Part shown: in pieces, positions 4,879-56,754 of the stretch | How the letters are laid out: each line of letters begins with the position of its first letter | Position numbering within the stretch: position 1 is the first letter of the stretch | Assembly: GCF_003574965.1 (NCBI RefSeq) | Contig: NZ_CP032317.1 | Span: 434,001 to 498,000, forward strand | DNA from: Hymenobacter oligotrophus | Lineage (GTDB): Bacteria > Bacteroidota > Bacteroidia > Cytophagales > Hymenobacteraceae | DNA: 64,000 nt | Reading direction: 5' to 3' | Program-made: the position numbers and the translations under genes | The notes under the pieces: generated by a model | What the model saw: only the letters and a program-made list of their open reading frames with translations | Database searches by the model: none | What the model was told of the DNA's origin: nothing

Positions 4879-5340
4879 ATGTCTACTTCGCACACCACCG
4901 CCCCCGCCGACGACCTCACGGCGCGTATCCGCCGCAAGCTGGAGCGCCAGCACTTTATGCACCTCATCGGTGCCGATATTACCACCATTGAGCCGGGCCG
5001 CGTACAGGCCGAACTCGACCTAGGCAAGCAGCACCAGCAACAGCGCGGGTTTGCCCACGGCGGCCTCGTGGCTACCATGGCCGACCTCGTAGCCGGGTTT
5101 GCCGGCGTTACGCTCATCCCCGACGACCACGGCCTGGTAACCGTCGAACTGAAAGTAAGCTACTTGCACCCCGGCCTAGGTGATAAGCTGATAGCTACGG
5201 GTTGGGTGCTGAAAGGCGGCCGCCGCTTGCAGTTTTGCGAGGCCGAGGTGCGCGCTTTCGGCGGCAATAACCCAGAGGAAGGCTTGCTGATTGCCAAGGC
5301 TACGGCCACAATGGCTATCATCGAACCGGCGAATCAATGA
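4879..5340 (+). CDS. PaaI-family hotdog thioesterase
   Basis: 153 residues with the hotdog fold signature: FAHGGLVATMADLVAGFAG around residues 56-74, where HGG and the following Asp region form the active site, then VTVELKVSYLHPG. Likely hydrolyses an acyl- or aryl-CoA thioester in the cytosol; the exact substrate is unknown. The last codons and stop (CAATGA) lie inside the left inverted repeat of the adjacent four-helix-bundle element, so the C-terminal residues may derive from that element. Confidence 0.9.
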   Translation: MSTSHTTAPADDLTARIRRKLERQHFMHLIGADITTIEPGRVQAELDLGKQHQQQRGFAHGGLVATMADLVAGFAGVTLIPDDHGLVTVELKVSYLHPGLGDKLIATGWVLKGGRRLQFCEAEVRAFGGNNPEEGLLIAKATATMAIIEPANQ

Positions 5341-5769
5341 GCAATTAACAATGAGCAATGATCAATGGTCGGCTGAGCAAAACGTTATCTTGGCCAAATC
5401 ATATGCTTTCGCCGTGCGGATGCTGAAGTTGCACAAGCACTTGCGCATGGCTCAACAAGAGCACATTGTATCCAAGCAGGTCGTGCGGAGCGGTACGTCA
5501 TTCGGCGCTAACGTTGAAGAGGCTATAGGGGCCATTTCCAAAGCCGACTTTTCCGCCAAAATGTCAATTGCCTACAAAGAAGCGCGCGAAACATCCTATT
5601 GGCTGCGGCTGCTCCACGATGCCGAATACCTGGAAGCACGGATGTTCGAGTCGTTGCACAACGATTGCCAGGAGCTTTGCCGCATCTTGTTTGCCATTTT
5701 ACGCGGCAACGGCCGAGCATAACAACCCAAACTATTCATTGCTCATTGATCATTGTTAATTGATCATTG
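5335..5769. mobile_element. four-helix-bundle gene flanked by 33-bp inverted repeats
   Basis: Left arm 5335-5367 and right arm 5737-5769 are inverted copies matching at 30 of 33 positions, both made of CAATGA / CAATTAACAATG words. Between them is a single gene of the 23S rRNA intervening-sequence protein family. The left arm overlaps both the stop of the upstream gene and the start of the inner gene; the right arm ends six bases before the next start codon. No transposase is present. Reading it as a mobile or once-mobile unit is an inference from this architecture. Confidence 0.6.
5351..5722 (+). CDS. four helix bundle protein (23S rRNA IVS / Avd-like family)
   Basis: 123 residues, all helical. 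Characteristic family segments are VVRSGTSFGANVEEA (about residues 45-59) and KEARETSYWLRLLHDA (about 75-90). Relatives are encoded within intervening sequences of bacterial 23S rRNA genes, as stand-alone genes, and as accessory Avd proteins of diversity-generating retroelements; they form basic oligomers that can bind nucleic acid. The role here is unknown. The ATG at 5351 and the first six codons (MSNDQW) are encoded by the left inverted repeat, so the protein could bind its own control region. No reverse transcriptase or variable-repeat gene is nearby, so a retroelement role is not supported. Confidence 0.85.
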   Translation: MSNDQWSAEQNVILAKSYAFAVRMLKLHKHLRMAQQEHIVSKQVVRSGTSFGANVEEAIGAISKADFSAKMSIAYKEARETSYWLRLLHDAEYLEARMFESLHNDCQELCRILFAILRGNGRA

Positions 5770-5775
5770 CCCCCC

Positions 5776-7221
5776 ATGCTTACTACAAGAATACCTTCCG
5801 TCCGCAACTATTTCCCTTACGACCCCACCGAGGACCAGTCCACGCTGTTTGGGCAGCTCGATGGTTTTCTGAAAGACCAGCTACCCGGCCGGAAGGTGTT
5901 TTTGCTGCGCGGCTACGCCGGTACCGGCAAAACCACGGTTGTAAGCGCCTTGGTTAAGTGGCTCGATAAAATGGGCCGCAAGTACGTACTGATGGCGCCC
6001 ACAGGCCGTGCGGCCAAGGTAATGTCGCAGTACTCGGGAGTGCCGGCCAGCACCATTCACAAACGCATTTACCGCAAGTCTGGTGGGTCGGAGAGCATGG
6101 CCTTTGCGCGGCAACCCAACCGCTCCGGCGAAACCATCTTTATCGTCGACGAAGCCTCGATGATTTCAAACGAGAAGTCGTTTGGCGAGAGTGCCTTGCT
6201 CGACGACCTGCTCGGCTACGTGTTCGAGAAAACCACCAACCGCCTGCTGCTCATCGGCGATACGGCCCAGTTGCCGCCGGTAGGCCAAAGCCTCAGCCCG
6301 GCCCTAGACCCCGGCGTGCTGGCCAGCTCGTACCGCTGCCGCGTGGAGGCCGCCGAGCTGCGCCAGGTAATGCGCCAGGCCGAGTCGTCGGGCATTCTGA
6401 TGAACGCCACCGTGCTGCGCGAAGAACTGCGCGATGCGCAGGAAGCTACGCCGGGCTCCGCCGAAGCCAACCCCAACATCCAATTCATCACTAAAGGCTA
6501 CCCCGACATTTACAAAATGGGCGGCGACAAGCTGGAGGATGGCTTGCGCTGGGCCTACCGGCACTATGGCCACGAGAATACCACCATAATTTGCCGCTCC
6601 AACAAAAACGCCAACCAGTATAACCAGCTGATTCGGCGCACCTTGTTCGACGCCGAGGATGAGATTGAGGCCGGCGACTACCTGATGGTGGTGCGCAACA
6701 ACTATACCTGGCTGCCAGCCGAATCGGAAGCGGGCTTTTTGGCCAACGGCGACTTTGTGGAGGTAACCAAAATTGTGCGCCGCATCGAGGAATTTGGCTG
6801 CCGCTTTGCTGACGCCCGCCTGCGCCTCGTCGATTACCCCGACGAGCCTGAGCTTGAGGCGCGCCTGCTGCTCGATACCCTGCACACCGAAAGCCCCGCT
6901 TTCCCGGCCGACCGCTCCAAGGCGCTGTACGAGGCCGTAAGCGCCGATTACGCGCATCTTACCACCAAGAAGGACAAGGCAGCCGCCATGCGTGCCGACC
7001 CGTACCTGAACGCCCTGCAGGTAAAGTTTGCCTACGCGCTTACGTGCCACAAGGCACAGGGCGGCCAGTGGCCCGCCGTGTTCGTCGACCACGGGTTTCT
7101 GAAGGAAGACATGATCAACGCCGAGTTTACGCGGTGGTTGTACACGGCTGTTACACGTGCTTCCGAAAAGCTGTTTCTGTTGAATTTCAACGCCAAACTT
7201 GTTGACGGCGGCGCGGAATGA
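5776..7221 (+). CDS. RecD-like superfamily 1B DNA helicase / AAA ATPase
   Basis: 481 residues. Walker A is LRGYAGTGKTT (about 40-50), Walker B IFIVDEASM (about 118-126), motif III GDTAQLPPVG, and the C-terminal helicase motifs are CHKAQGGQW and YTAVTRASEK. This is the arrangement of RecD/TraA-type 5'-3' helicases, but the protein is short and lacks the N-terminal regulatory domain of RecD2. Probably a stand-alone DNA repair helicase. The ATG at 5776 is chosen over a TTG at 5767, which lies in the inverted repeat. If the preceding element were absent, the gene would directly follow the thioesterase. Confidence 0.88.
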   Translation: MLTTRIPSVRNYFPYDPTEDQSTLFGQLDGFLKDQLPGRKVFLLRGYAGTGKTTVVSALVKWLDKMGRKYVLMAPTGRAAKVMSQYSGVPASTIHKRIYRKSGGSESMAFARQPNRSGETIFIVDEASMISNEKSFGESALLDDLLGYVFEKTTNRLLLIGDTAQLPPVGQSLSPALDPGVLASSYRCRVEAAELRQVMRQAESSGILMNATVLREELRDAQEATPGSAEANPNIQFITKGYPDIYKMGGDKLEDGLRWAYRHYGHENTTIICRSNKNANQYNQLIRRTLFDAEDEIEAGDYLMVVRNNYTWLPAESEAGFLANGDFVEVTKIVRRIEEFGCRFADARLRLVDYPDEPELEARLLLDTLHTESPAFPADRSKALYEAVSADYAHLTTKKDKAAAMRADPYLNALQVKFAYALTCHKAQGGQWPAVFVDHGFLKEDMINAEFTRWLYTAVTRASEKLFLLNFNAKLVDGGAE

Positions 7222-12893: not shown

Positions 12894-13165
12894 GCAGTAG
12901 CGCGGACTTTGGTTACGCCGACCTTCGGTTGTAGTCCGCGTCCACAGATAGTAATTTCTGACCTAGGGCGGCACACGATGTAGCGCGGGCTTTAGCCCGC
13001 ATTTGCCAGAACGAAATCGTAGGTGCGAAACCGCGCATCACCGGCTGTTCGGACAAACGCGGACTGAAGTCCGCGCTACACGCTACACCGCGCAACTAAT
13101 GATTTTACTATCCACGGACGCGTACTACAACCGAAGGTCGGCGTAGCCAAAGTCCGCGCTACTGC
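12894..13165. repeat. large composite palindrome of the GTAGCGCGG family
   Basis: Outer arms of about 65 bases (12894-12958 and 13101-13165) are near-perfect inverted copies: GCAGTAGCGCGGACTTTGG with ACGCCGACCTTCGGTTGTAG, then CCGCGTCC and GATAGTAA. Inside are two smaller hairpins, GCGGGCTTTAGCCCGC at the left and GCGGACTGAAGTCCGC at the right, and a CCTAGG at 12962. The right arm ends at the stop of the csaA gene. No coding potential was seen. Confidence 0.85.
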
Positions 13166-25391: not shown

Positions 25392-27077
25392 ATGTTCAAA
25401 AACACGATAACCAACCTCGGTCGCATCCGCCAAGTGGTGGAAGTGCTGCTGCGTTATGGCTTCGAAGACGCCGTAACCACCACGGCCTTGCGCCGGCTGG
25501 TGCCCGAGCGGCAGCGTCGCAGCTGGCACCACGGCAACCAATCGGTGTTCGAGATGTCGCGCTGGGAGCGGGTGCGCATGGTTATCGAGGAGTTGGGGCC
25601 CACGTTTATCAAGCTCGCGCAGGTGCTCAGCAACCGCGCCGATTTGCTGCCCCAGCCGTTGGTTGATGAGTTTGCCAAACTGCAAAGCAGCGTACCGCCC
25701 TTCGACAGCGCCGTGGCCCGCCAAATTGTGGCGCAGGAGCTTGGCCGCCCCATCGAGGAGGTATTCAGCGAGTTCGACGATGTGCCCCTGGGTTCGGCCT
25801 CCATTGGGCAGGTGCACCGCGCCCGCCTGATTGATGGCGCCGAAGTAGTGGTGAAGGTGCAGCGCCCCGACGCCCGCGACAAAATCACCACCGACCTGAG
25901 CTTACTGCGCGAACTGGTGCGCCTAACGAGCGGCTACTTGCGCCGGCAGGGCATCAGCAACCCGCAGGATATTGTGGAGGCCTTCGAGCGCAGCATGATG
26001 CAGGAGCTCGACTACACCTCGGAGGCGCGGGCCATGGAGCAGTTTCGCAAGCTTTATGCCGAGTACCACACGTTTTACGTGCCCGAGCCGCACCGCAGCC
26101 TCAGCACCGCTCGCGTGCTCGTGATTGAGTTTGTGAGCGGTTGCAAAATCACCGACAAAGACCAACTGCTGCGCTGGAACCTCGACCCCGCCGCGGTGGC
26201 CGAAACCGGCATGGACATCTACCTGACGCAGATTTTCGAGTTCGGTATTTTCCACGCCGATCCGCACCCCGGCAACGTGCTCGTGCGCCCCGATGGCAGC
26301 ATCGTGCTCATCGACTTTGGCATGGTGGGGCGCCTTACCAAGCAGCAGAAGTACGCGTTTGCAGGCGTGTTTATTAGCATGGGCCAGCAGGATGCCCGCG
26401 GCATGGCGCTCAACTTCCGGCGGTTGGCCCTTACCTCGGATATCCGCGATATGCGCAGCTTCGAGGCCGAGCTGCAGCAACTCATCGACGACTTTACGGG
26501 GCTCGATGTGAAGGAAATGAGCATGAGCGCCCTCGCGGAGCGCCTGCAGGGCGTCATTTACCGCTACAAGCTGCAGGTGCCCGGCTCGGTGTTTCTGATT
26601 CTGAGGGCCTTGGTAATCCTAGAAGGCATTGGCAAGGTGCTGCACCCGGTCTTCAACACCTTTGAGTTTGTGCGCCCCTACGGCCGCCGGCTGATTATGG
26701 AGCAGTACTCCATGAGCAACATCGGCGCCGAGCTGCAGTACACCGGGCAGCAGCTGCTGGCGCTCATGTACACGTTGCCCACCGATTTGCGCCAAATTGT
26801 GCGCAAGCTTTCCAAAGGCGATTTGCGCGTGCAAGCGCAGCTGTCGGGCTACGCCCCGCTGCTGAGCACGGCCGAAAGGCTGGTGTCGCGCACCATTATC
26901 ACGCTGCTGGCGGTGGCGTTTCTGCTGTTCTCGGGCTTGTCGTTGCTCGGCAATTACCCTGCGGGCCAAATGCCCTACTTCCGCGGCTTGCCCGCCGTAA
27001 CGTGGTGGGGCCTGGGCGGTACGGCGTTTTGGTTGATGGTGCTGTTTATTCTCACCATCAGAAAGGAAAAGCAGTAA
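25392..27077 (+). CDS. ABC1/AarF/UbiB-family atypical kinase
   Basis: 561 residues. UbiB-family marks: the KxGQ-like TFIKLAQVLSNRADLLP, the A-rich loop LGSASIGQVHRARL, VVVKVQRP with the ATP-site lysine, FHADPHPGNVLV and LIDFGMVGRL (catalytic and metal residues), and two C-terminal hydrophobic segments. Family members are linked to isoprenoid quinone metabolism; in a menaquinone user the target is uncertain. ATG 25392 is chosen because upstream frame sequence is the preceding terminator. Confidence 0.92.
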   Translation: MFKNTITNLGRIRQVVEVLLRYGFEDAVTTTALRRLVPERQRRSWHHGNQSVFEMSRWERVRMVIEELGPTFIKLAQVLSNRADLLPQPLVDEFAKLQSSVPPFDSAVARQIVAQELGRPIEEVFSEFDDVPLGSASIGQVHRARLIDGAEVVVKVQRPDARDKITTDLSLLRELVRLTSGYLRRQGISNPQDIVEAFERSMMQELDYTSEARAMEQFRKLYAEYHTFYVPEPHRSLSTARVLVIEFVSGCKITDKDQLLRWNLDPAAVAETGMDIYLTQIFEFGIFHADPHPGNVLVRPDGSIVLIDFGMVGRLTKQQKYAFAGVFISMGQQDARGMALNFRRLALTSDIRDMRSFEAELQQLIDDFTGLDVKEMSMSALAERLQGVIYRYKLQVPGSVFLILRALVILEGIGKVLHPVFNTFEFVRPYGRRLIMEQYSMSNIGAELQYTGQQLLALMYTLPTDLRQIVRKLSKGDLRVQAQLSGYAPLLSTAERLVSRTIITLLAVAFLLFSGLSLLGNYPAGQMPYFRGLPAVTWWGLGGTAFWLMVLFILTIRKEKQ

Positions 27078-27090
27078 CCGTTTCCCAAGC

Positions 27091-27497
27091 TGTCATTGCG
27101 AGGAGGGACGACGAAGCAATCGGTCCTTGGCTGGGCACAACCGCTCACCTAGTAGCAACCGAAACCACGTAGCGCGGTGTAGCATGGACTTTGTAGTCTG
27201 CGTCCCCGGATAGTAAGTTTTGTTTTCGGACCTAGGGGTGCGGCGCGTGTAGCGCGGACTTCAGTCCGCGTCGGCGTGAACGATTGGCATCGAGCGAATA
27301 CGTGCGGCCGATTTCGTTCTGGCAAACGCGGGCTAAAGCCCGCGCTACACAGGACGCCCTAGGTCCGGAAATAGAAATTACTATCGTGGGACGCGGACTG
27401 CAAAGTCCGCGCTACGGCCCTAGGTGCATTTCGCTTGGTGCTGGGTGAGCGGTTGTGCCCAGAACTGATTGCTTCGTCGTCCCTACTCGCAAGGACA
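27091..27497. repeat. outer TGTCATTGCGAG-type inverted repeat enclosing a second repeat
   Basis: Left arm 27091-27152 and right arm 27441-27497 are inverted copies of about 57-62 bases at roughly 90% identity: TGTCATTGCGAG, GGGACGACGAAGCAATC, then GGGCACAACCGCTCACC. The CATTGCGAG...GAAGCAATC word pair is a recurrent bacterial intergenic repeat. The loop holds a full GTAGCGCGG element. Confidence 0.85.
27168..27419. repeat. GTAGCGCGG composite palindrome nested inside another repeat
   Basis: Outer parts AGCGCGGTGTAGC...TGCGTCCCCGGATAGTAAG and ACTATCGTGGGACGCGGACT...CGCGCTACGG pair across the element. Inner hairpins are GCGCGGACTTCAGTCCGCG and GCGGGCTAAAGCCCGCGC, with CCTAGG at 27231 and 27357. 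The order of parts matches the copy at 12.9 kb. Confidence 0.8.
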
Positions 27498-27562
27498 GCC
27501 TGGCAAACGGCTGCTTTTCACTTTTTCAGGAACATTTCATTGCAGCAACGCCGCAAGGCCGT

Positions 27563-56249: not shown

Positions 56250-56331
56250 GTTGTCAGTTAACAGTTGCGGGTTGTCAGGTTGTTCAGGCCCGAAAAAAGG
56301 CACTGACAACCGACAACCCACAACTGACAAC
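56250..56331. repeat. GTTGTCAGTT-ended inverted repeat in the isc cluster
   Basis: Arms 56250-56278 and 56303-56331 begin GTTGTCAGTT and end AACTGACAAC, paired at both ends with a mismatched middle. It is the second member of the repeat found at 36.4 kb. Confidence 0.75.
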
Positions 56332-56337
56332 TCCAGA

Positions 56338-56754
56338 TTAGTGATGCGACTTGGCGGCTTCCAACTCGGGCAAGCCGTTCTTCACGCGGAAGTCGTTGAT
56401 GGCCGCCTTGATGGCGTCTTCGGCCAGTACCGAGCAGTGGATTTTAACCGGCGGCAGGGCCAGCTCTTCCACAATCTCCATATTGTCGATGGCCAAGGCC
56501 TCGTCAACGGATTTGCCTTTCAGCCACTCGGTAGCGAGCGACGAAGAAGCAATGGCCGAGCCGCAGCCAAAGGTCTTGAACTTGGCATCGGTGATGATGT
56601 TGGTGGTTTCGTCAACCTCGATCTGCAGGCGCATTACGTCGCCGCATTCGGGGGCACCCACCAGCCCGGTGCCTACGTTCTTTTTGCTTTTATCCAGCGT
56701 ACCTACGTTGCGCGGGTTGCTGTAGTGGTCGATTACTTTATCGGAGTAAGCCAT
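56338..56754 (-). CDS. iscU: Fe-S cluster assembly scaffold IscU
   Basis: 138 residues with the scaffold cysteines in GAPECGDVM, FGCGSAIASSS and IHCSVLAEDAI, and the LPPVKIHC chaperone-recognition site. It receives sulfur from IscS and builds the cluster. HscA/HscB and ferredoxin genes are absent nearby. Separated from iscS and the next gene by short repeats. Confidence 0.95.
   Translation of the reverse strand: MAYSDKVIDHYSNPRNVGTLDKSKKNVGTGLVGAPECGDVMRLQIEVDETTNIITDAKFKTFGCGSAIASSSLATEWLKGKSVDEALAIDNMEIVEELALPPVKIHCSVLAEDAIKAAINDFRVKNGLPELEAAKSHH

Follow-up and report, generated by a model that had tools for sequence, protein, structure and literature searches.

The system closest to the element reported here is the intervening sequence (IVS) of 23S rRNA genes. 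In the available sections of PMC4990558, the Coxiella IVS is described as ending in inverted repeats of about 28 bp and as cut by RNase III; tandem GACAGAT heptamers, two or three depending on the strain, stand directly before its S23p ORF. The same sections call this IVS selfish and suggest that its ORF is expendable. Mobility itself is an older idea: as these sections note, rRNA intervening sequences had already been proposed to move, with the ORF serving that purpose (Ralph and McClelland 1993). The protein family PF05635 is stated to resemble Avd in the excerpted part of PMC10053308.

Dispersed heptamer arrays have been described separately. According to the available parts of PMC4692102, such arrays are formed by GGGAATC in Xanthomonas and GGGGA(C/T)T in Nostoc; those of Xanthomonas mostly have four units, are mostly intergenic and include 70-75 convergent pairs per genome. 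The TAACTGA repeats of Beggiatoaceae form intergenic heptamer arrays that are nearly all direct (PMC4679880, in part). Rickettsia palindromic elements are short and lie in frame within ORFs (PMC10969869, in part).

We analysed a window of 64,000 nt from Hymenobacter oligotrophus (NZ_CP032317.1, positions 434,001-498,000; genome label G000), and compared this genome with seven congeners (G001-G007), which gives a genus set of eight genomes. A unit of 435 bp (5335-5769) was found with a thioesterase gene on one side and a helicase gene on the other. It thus lies in protein-coding DNA, as an earlier note on this stretch had stated. The features are:

4879-5340, plus strand: upstream host gene, hotdog-fold thioesterase (PF03061, 51.7 bits; TIGR00369)
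5335-5367, plus strand: left array of five CAATKAN heptamers, the fifth truncated, pointing inward (from the sequence)
5351-5722, plus strand: S23/IVP four-helix-bundle gene, 123 aa (PF05635; TIGR02436; model pLDDT 92; best PDB match 2RLD)
5737-5769, minus strand: right array of five CAATKAN heptamers, the fifth truncated, pointing inward (from the sequence)
5776-7221, plus strand: downstream host gene, RecD/PIF1-like SF1 helicase (PF13604, UvrD_C_2)

The helicase scored 151.8 bits against the RecD2 model, below the model cut-off of 500. No second ORF of at least 80 aa was found between the arms.

The two arms match at 30 of 33 bases, the figure given in the earlier note, and their local inverted-repeat score of 27 is the best here, the highest value among 300 dinucleotide shuffles being 17. 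The left arm reads CAATGAG, CAATTAA, CAATGAG, CAATGAT, CAATG, and the right arm, on the other strand, CAATGAT, CAATTAA, CAATGAT, CAATGAG, CAATG, so that the fifth unit of both ends at CAATG. The GC content of the arms is 0.32, compared with 0.60 for the window. The left array provides two signals of the surrounding genes: the thioesterase stop codon (TGA, 5338-5340) falls within its first heptamer and the inner start codon (ATG, 5351) within its third. The note had read the left repeat as covering both codons, which it does, and the first six codons of the inner gene, of which it spans nearly six. As also noted there, six bases separate the end of the right array (5769) from the helicase ATG (5776). 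Shuffling the order of the units costs little complementarity at this locus (p 0.18), which favours reading the arms as a pair of arrays built from one motif over reading them as a single long stem. This array nature, the dependence of the motif on lineage and the gene-less copies described below were all absent from the earlier note.

The inner protein belongs to the S23/IVP family, in agreement with the four-helix assignment made earlier: it scored 82.7 bits against PF05635 (cut-off 33.8) and 95.9 bits against TIGR02436 (cut-off 24). It had no other Pfam or NCBIfam match, and no nuclease or transposase domain was recognised in it. The predicted fold has four helices (pLDDT 92; TM 0.87 to 2RLD). 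The fold search matched 2RLD and 2GSC, both of which hold chains A-E, and matched Avd (4DWL) and the ribonucleoprotein of a diversity-generating retroelement (DGR; 8UBE) more weakly. According to the available text of PMC4990558, 2GSC forms a homopentamer. Across 28 aligned proteins, Q43, N54 and E80 (window numbering) are invariant, and R46 and S50 nearly so.

PF05635 was present in 235 of 296 sampled genomes of the window's phylum (221 above the curated cut-off), and a relative was found in 2 of 50,697 phage records. The genus set contains 23 PF05635 genes across seven of eight genomes; G004 has none, and G007, with eight, has the most among the congeners. G000 itself has three, each between inward-facing arrays with a unit of its own: CAATKAN for the window gene, TTGTCAG for L009 and AAGGANG for L011.

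We then surveyed the flanks of 139 PF05635 loci: the 23 genus loci, the best 30 from the 296 phylum genomes, 9 plasmid loci and 77 GTDB loci. The GTDB loci were 80 kept of 588, with phyla read from titles, less three at contig edges (L286, L309, L320). The plasmid loci were picked for spread, 9 from 25 records and later 5 from 37. Controls were taken from the same loci at an offset of 1100 bases, and those falling off a locus were skipped, which left 140 of 154 in the GTDB set. Inverted arms reached a score of at least 16, a limit fixed after the first arm results had been inspected, in 109/139 loci from many phyla and in 3/264 controls. By set, the counts were 22/23 (genus), 19/30 (phylum), 9/9 (plasmids) and 59/77 (GTDB); the 30 loci below the limit include 11 of the 30 phylum loci. 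The period was 7 in 90 of the 109 arm pairs, 8 in 16 and another value in three, and one of the three passing controls also had period 7. In the genus, 14 loci had period 7 and 8 had period 8, with 0/46 shifted controls passing. Period 7 was also seen at five additional plasmid loci, of which two are near-identical. Thus the note's proposal to look for similar arms around other four-helix genes was carried out with a positive result. As far as sampled, among best-scoring hits that include related, non-independent loci, inverted heptamer or octamer arms are a family-wide rule of PF05635 loci.

Period-7 arms have a median length of 32 nt. Rounded to whole units, 110 of 178 tracts have four or five; L275, with its very long arrays, was excluded from this count. 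For octamer tracts the median unit numbers were 3.8 and 4.1. AG was present in 91 of 106 unit motifs, compared with 58 expected from shuffled letters. An open frame through the arms, with T in every third unit, was considered as a strict rule and rejected, since several arms conform to it but others do not. The survey loci were also scanned crudely for seven short motifs of 23S rRNA, with no positive control; there was no match, a result of little weight.

The units are lineage-specific, and proteins that resemble each other have units that do so too. In Mantel tests, which ignore relatedness and base composition, motif similarity was correlated with protein identity both for 64 loci from many phyla (r 0.23, p 0.001) and for 39 loci of the genus and phylum sets (r 0.51, p 0.001). 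Most of the signal among the 64 loci came from pairs above 55% identity. Such co-variation would be expected if the S23/IVP protein reads the repeat.

The window also holds a second element, without a gene:

56250-56331, strand unassigned: gene-less element of the TTGTCAG type, arms 56250-56278 and 56303-56331

Its gene-bearing counterpart, L009, lies elsewhere in G000. The element is 6-8 bases from the ends of two co-directional ORFs, and the ORF at 56338-56754 beside it is, by eye, presumably iscU-like. Two more inverted repeats were seen in the window: one at 12894-13165, with 119-base arms and the GTAGCGCGGACTT motif, which is not of the heptamer type, and one at 27073-27515, with 59-base arms that carry GACGAAGCAATC and stand 325 bases apart.

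Gene-less copies are dispersed through the genus. Eighteen gene-less CAATKAN loci were inspected in G000, at least one of which (near 1000.7 kb) has a one-sided array, and an additional CAATKAN match lies near 3589 kb. When about 400 kb of each of six genus genomes were scanned de novo, 67 array pairs of period 7 or 8 (median loop 37 nt) were left after the removal of three gene-sized pairs and, by a GC limit, two GC-rich ones. Fifty-two of the 67 scored at least 16 to the arm of a gene-bearing copy of the genus, a count made without a random-arm control. In 24 of these 52, the gene resident in the same genome was the best match or within one point of it (permuted mean 13.9, p 0.0006). The G007 stretches had been selected at G000 element sites and are hence biased; excluding them gave 20/39 (p 0.005). 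For heptamers alone the figure was 14/34 (permuted mean 9.5, p 0.048, two pairs dropped); the test was redone with octamers because period-8 families are plainly present. The fewest array pairs, two, were found in G004, which has no PF05635 gene.

Whole-genome counts of the unit patterns were made in overlapping windows, in which long arrays are counted several times. The TTGTCAG pattern gave 80, 127 and 179 matches in the three genomes with the gene and 15, 22, 25, 26 and 51 in those without. CAATKAN gave 41 in G000, 40 in G007 and 30 in G003, neither G007 nor G003 having a CAATKAN gene, and 0-13 in the others; one long array contributed 13 of the 40 in G007. The GGTGANNT pattern gave 137 in G003 and 20 in G005, which have the gene, 143 in G002, which does not, and 18 in G006, where the reversed control gave 15. 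For CAATKAN and GGTGANNT, array counts therefore do not always follow the gene, which speaks against an explanation by mobile elements. A CAATGAA array of about 15 units was also seen at G007:C1:4179020-4179123, with no inverted partner among the matches listed.

The gene-less copies differ in what they share beyond the arms. Most of the 17 octamer copies aligned from G002, G003 and G005 have a common subterminal sequence and different outer flanks (by eye), and this sequence is also common to the gene-bearing L055 and L054. These octamer copies look like MITEs of an autonomous gene-bearing partner. The loops of the other gene-less copies are unrelated, save for two copies that occupy the corresponding site in two genomes, and in this they are unlike ordinary transposon copies; in the window's CAATKAN family, gene-less copies share only the arms with the gene-bearing copy. 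Three gene-less copies lie in frame and free of stops within ORFs that we take, by eye, to be ispG-like, uvrA-like and metH-like. The 3' end of L055 has an apparently complete gene-less octamer hairpin downstream of its S23 gene, and the right end of the L055 element may be this whole hairpin.

The earlier note had proposed a mobile family and a comparison of related strains for empty sites. By coordinates, no PF05635 gene lies at the thioesterase-helicase joint in any of the seven congeners (0/7). The joint sequence was read in G001, G002, G004 and G007 and contains no period-7 or period-8 array pair; in G003, G005 and G006 no thioesterase was detected within 1.5 kb. G007 has another S23 gene, with AATTAAT arms, about 3 kb upstream of the helicase. 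In two cyanobacterial plasmids an S23 gene with arms lies between cas2 and cas1, antisense to both, and in two related plasmids cas2 and cas1 abut directly, which represents an empty site. At the S23-bearing site the array starts where cas1 has lost about 65 bp of its end (by eye). Target-site duplications were not seen by eye at element ends that are fuzzy, in congener intergenic sequence that is too diverged to give exact joints. The lack of a duplication, and the loss and the antisense orientation at cas1, count against a mobile element. The gene-free sites, together with the arms at 109/139 family loci, support the proposal of a mobile family; neither of the two outcomes that the note named as refuting it was obtained.

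On plasmids, S23 genes lie amid defence genes in at least four of nine loci (L255, L256, L257 and L260), with hsdS/hsdR, cas2/cas1 twice and drmD/MmeI as neighbours. Another palindrome family, TCATCCTGA...AAGGACCTT, was seen in G001 (L069, about 1400-1467) and at the 54.7k and 399k sites of G007; it occupies the same kind of gene gaps as the heptamer elements, and sometimes the same sites.

The reading we favour, with moderate confidence, is that 5335-5769 is a full-length minimal mobile element whose ends are the two inward arrays and whose only sizeable gene encodes the S23/IVP protein; a ring of this protein would bind its own array, and a host enzyme would move the element. The ends are probably recognised by the element's own ring protein. 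Element ends would generally be inward arrays in which a lineage-specific heptamer is repeated four to five times. The Avd-like four-helix bundle, which forms five-membered rings in solved relatives, would bind them as a ring, perhaps with one unit per subunit. We infer this binding from the co-variation of motif and protein and from their co-residence. The bound ring may then mark the ends and mobilise its own element and, in trans, gene-less copies. Cutting and joining would fall to a host enzyme, a step suggested by the lack of any other sizeable gene in the element. Copies would persist where they are least harmful, in operon gaps or in-frame protein linkers, and those in operon gaps would be expressed from host transcripts, sometimes giving stop and start codons.

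The earlier note had raised movement through RNA. An RNA-level element would behave like the 23S rRNA intervening sequences: the arms would pair, RNase III would excise the RNA, and reverse transcription would spread it. The protein family is the same, the Coxiella IVS has its 28-bp stem, RNase III cut and tandem heptamers before the ORF (PMC4990558, in part), and Avd folds alike, weakly. Moreover, in-register pairing of the arms beat shuffled units at 64 of 72 gene-bearing loci (Wilcoxon p 3e-12, with arm limits set by the same score), gapped arms and arms longer than 60 nt being excluded. Orientation was examined at 99 gene-bearing loci with long flanking ORFs, partly related and with neighbours called mechanically: both neighbours are on the S23 strand in 71, on the opposite strand in 10 and mixed in 18, so that the gene is co-oriented in 71/81 cases with neighbours on one strand. 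This bias can mean expression from host transcripts or an RNA step, and it is the sole observation that leans towards RNA. Against this, unit order reached p 0.05 at single loci in 21% of the 72 with a gene and in 6% of 63 without one, and arm mismatches comprised 151 G.U, 192 A.C (p 0.03, in the opposite direction) and 418 transversions. Reading frames continue through three of the gene-less copies. A reverse transcriptase domain (RVT_1, PF00078) occurs in two of the eight genus genomes and had no match in G007 or in G000, which is 99.97% complete; by this model, G000 shows no genomic reverse transcriptase of the kind a DGR has. The reverse-transcriptase route is not supported, and we consider an RNA-level element improbable.

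Two related candidates were also rejected. The exact hairpin as the main conserved feature was dropped in view of the single-locus proportions above and the score-chosen arm limits, and selection on an RNA stem was dropped for want of a G.U excess between the arms.

Host regulation is about equally unlikely. Here the S23/IVP protein would be a repressor or an mRNA-binding regulator, and the dispersed intergenic arrays would be its operators. The arrays are indeed mostly intergenic, and site comparisons are partly in keeping with such a role. Sixteen of the 18 gene-less G000 sites were compared with G007 and classed by eye: eight have the same family in G007, about five a different heptamer family (one weak), two another repeat, and one is of uncertain class. 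Summed over seven of eight shared sites, arms are identical at 410/575 positions and loops at 199/412. However, arms are better kept than loops at only 4/7 sites and not at the other three, and a change of motif at about 5/16 sites is hard to reconcile with operators. Nor is this change predicted by simple transposition. In the ispG-like linker, a hairpin is present in five of eight genomes, with four different families, and absent from three. Copies lie inside three ORFs, and the gene is missing from the thioesterase-helicase site in all seven congeners. Passive tandem repeats, formed by slippage and template switching into inverted arrays with the gene there by chance, would account for slippage-like long runs (about 15 units in G007, far longer in L275) but not for arms at 109/139 loci against 3/264 controls, the co-variation of motif and protein or the common subterminal sequence of the octamer family, and are very improbable.

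Returning to a mobile element with S23/IVP-bound ends, we also put forward a wider proposal, which is tentative and in its full form rather doubtful. These elements may constitute a new, very widespread transposase-less class, in which an S23/IVP pentamer ring would read about five heptamers, one per subunit, and the array would be both binding site and element end. Specificity would shift by lineage, host DNA repair or replication would complete the movement, and new specificities would re-colonise the sites of older families. Such re-colonisation would explain motif replacement at single sites, as in ispG. The octamer medians of 3.8 and 4.1 and the Xanthomonas arrays of mostly four units fit poorly with one unit per pentamer subunit, and we lowered our confidence in this proposal because octamer arrays are nearer to four units.

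A recognition motif legible in the DNA beside most sampled genes would give the orphan PF05635 family a directly testable ligand. Heptamer arrays that were described separately (the Coxiella IVS, perhaps those of Xanthomonas and cyanobacteria) could have one cause. The element type points to mobility without a known enzyme, and the finding may also be relevant to the handling of nucleic acid by the related Avd.

Published work was compared with these results in a search whose coverage left out bioRxiv and most subscription journals; among the matches listed, none linked the PF05635 family as a whole to heptamer arrays. Such a link was likewise not found in the available parts of PMC8700078 and PMC4853749. 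The Xanthomonas and Nostoc arrays were studied as G-quadruplexes in the available parts of PMC4692102, whose main text does not contain the terms four helix or S23. The main text of PMC4679880, on Beggiatoaceae, does not contain four helix, S23, Avd or intervening sequence. Rickettsia palindromic elements share the in-frame ORF copies seen here, with no partner protein mentioned in the available part of PMC10969869, a MITE review in which the word heptamer is absent.

With respect to the main classes of mobile DNA, the element at 5335-5769 encodes no transposase, which separates it from DNA transposons and insertion sequences. Gene-less and gene-bearing copies have terminal sequence in common, as MITEs and their partners do. 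In REPIN/RAYT systems, a single resident protein, the Y1 transposase RAYT, accompanies dispersed palindromic partners; the S23/IVP elements have a similar resident protein and partners, but no recognised nuclease. Avd of diversity-generating retroelements is also a four-helix bundle, to which the weak matches 4DWL and 8UBE belong, but these retroelements need a reverse transcriptase, and G000 has no RVT_1 match. Heptamer ends are not known to be part of DGRs.

The 23S rRNA intervening sequences remain the nearest likeness, since they have the same protein family, terminal repeats of about 28 bp and heptamers before the ORF (PMC4990558, in part). Unlike them, the window element lies in a protein-coding operon, between thioesterase and helicase genes, and not in rRNA. 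Elements of the window type also differ from the Coxiella IVS as described in the available sections, where heptamers are reported for one species, in having arrays on both sides, dispersed gene-less copies and lineage-specific units across phyla. Taken together, the window element is of the S23 intervening-sequence type and is novel in its protein-coding setting, its family-wide, lineage-specific heptamer ends and its gene-less satellites.
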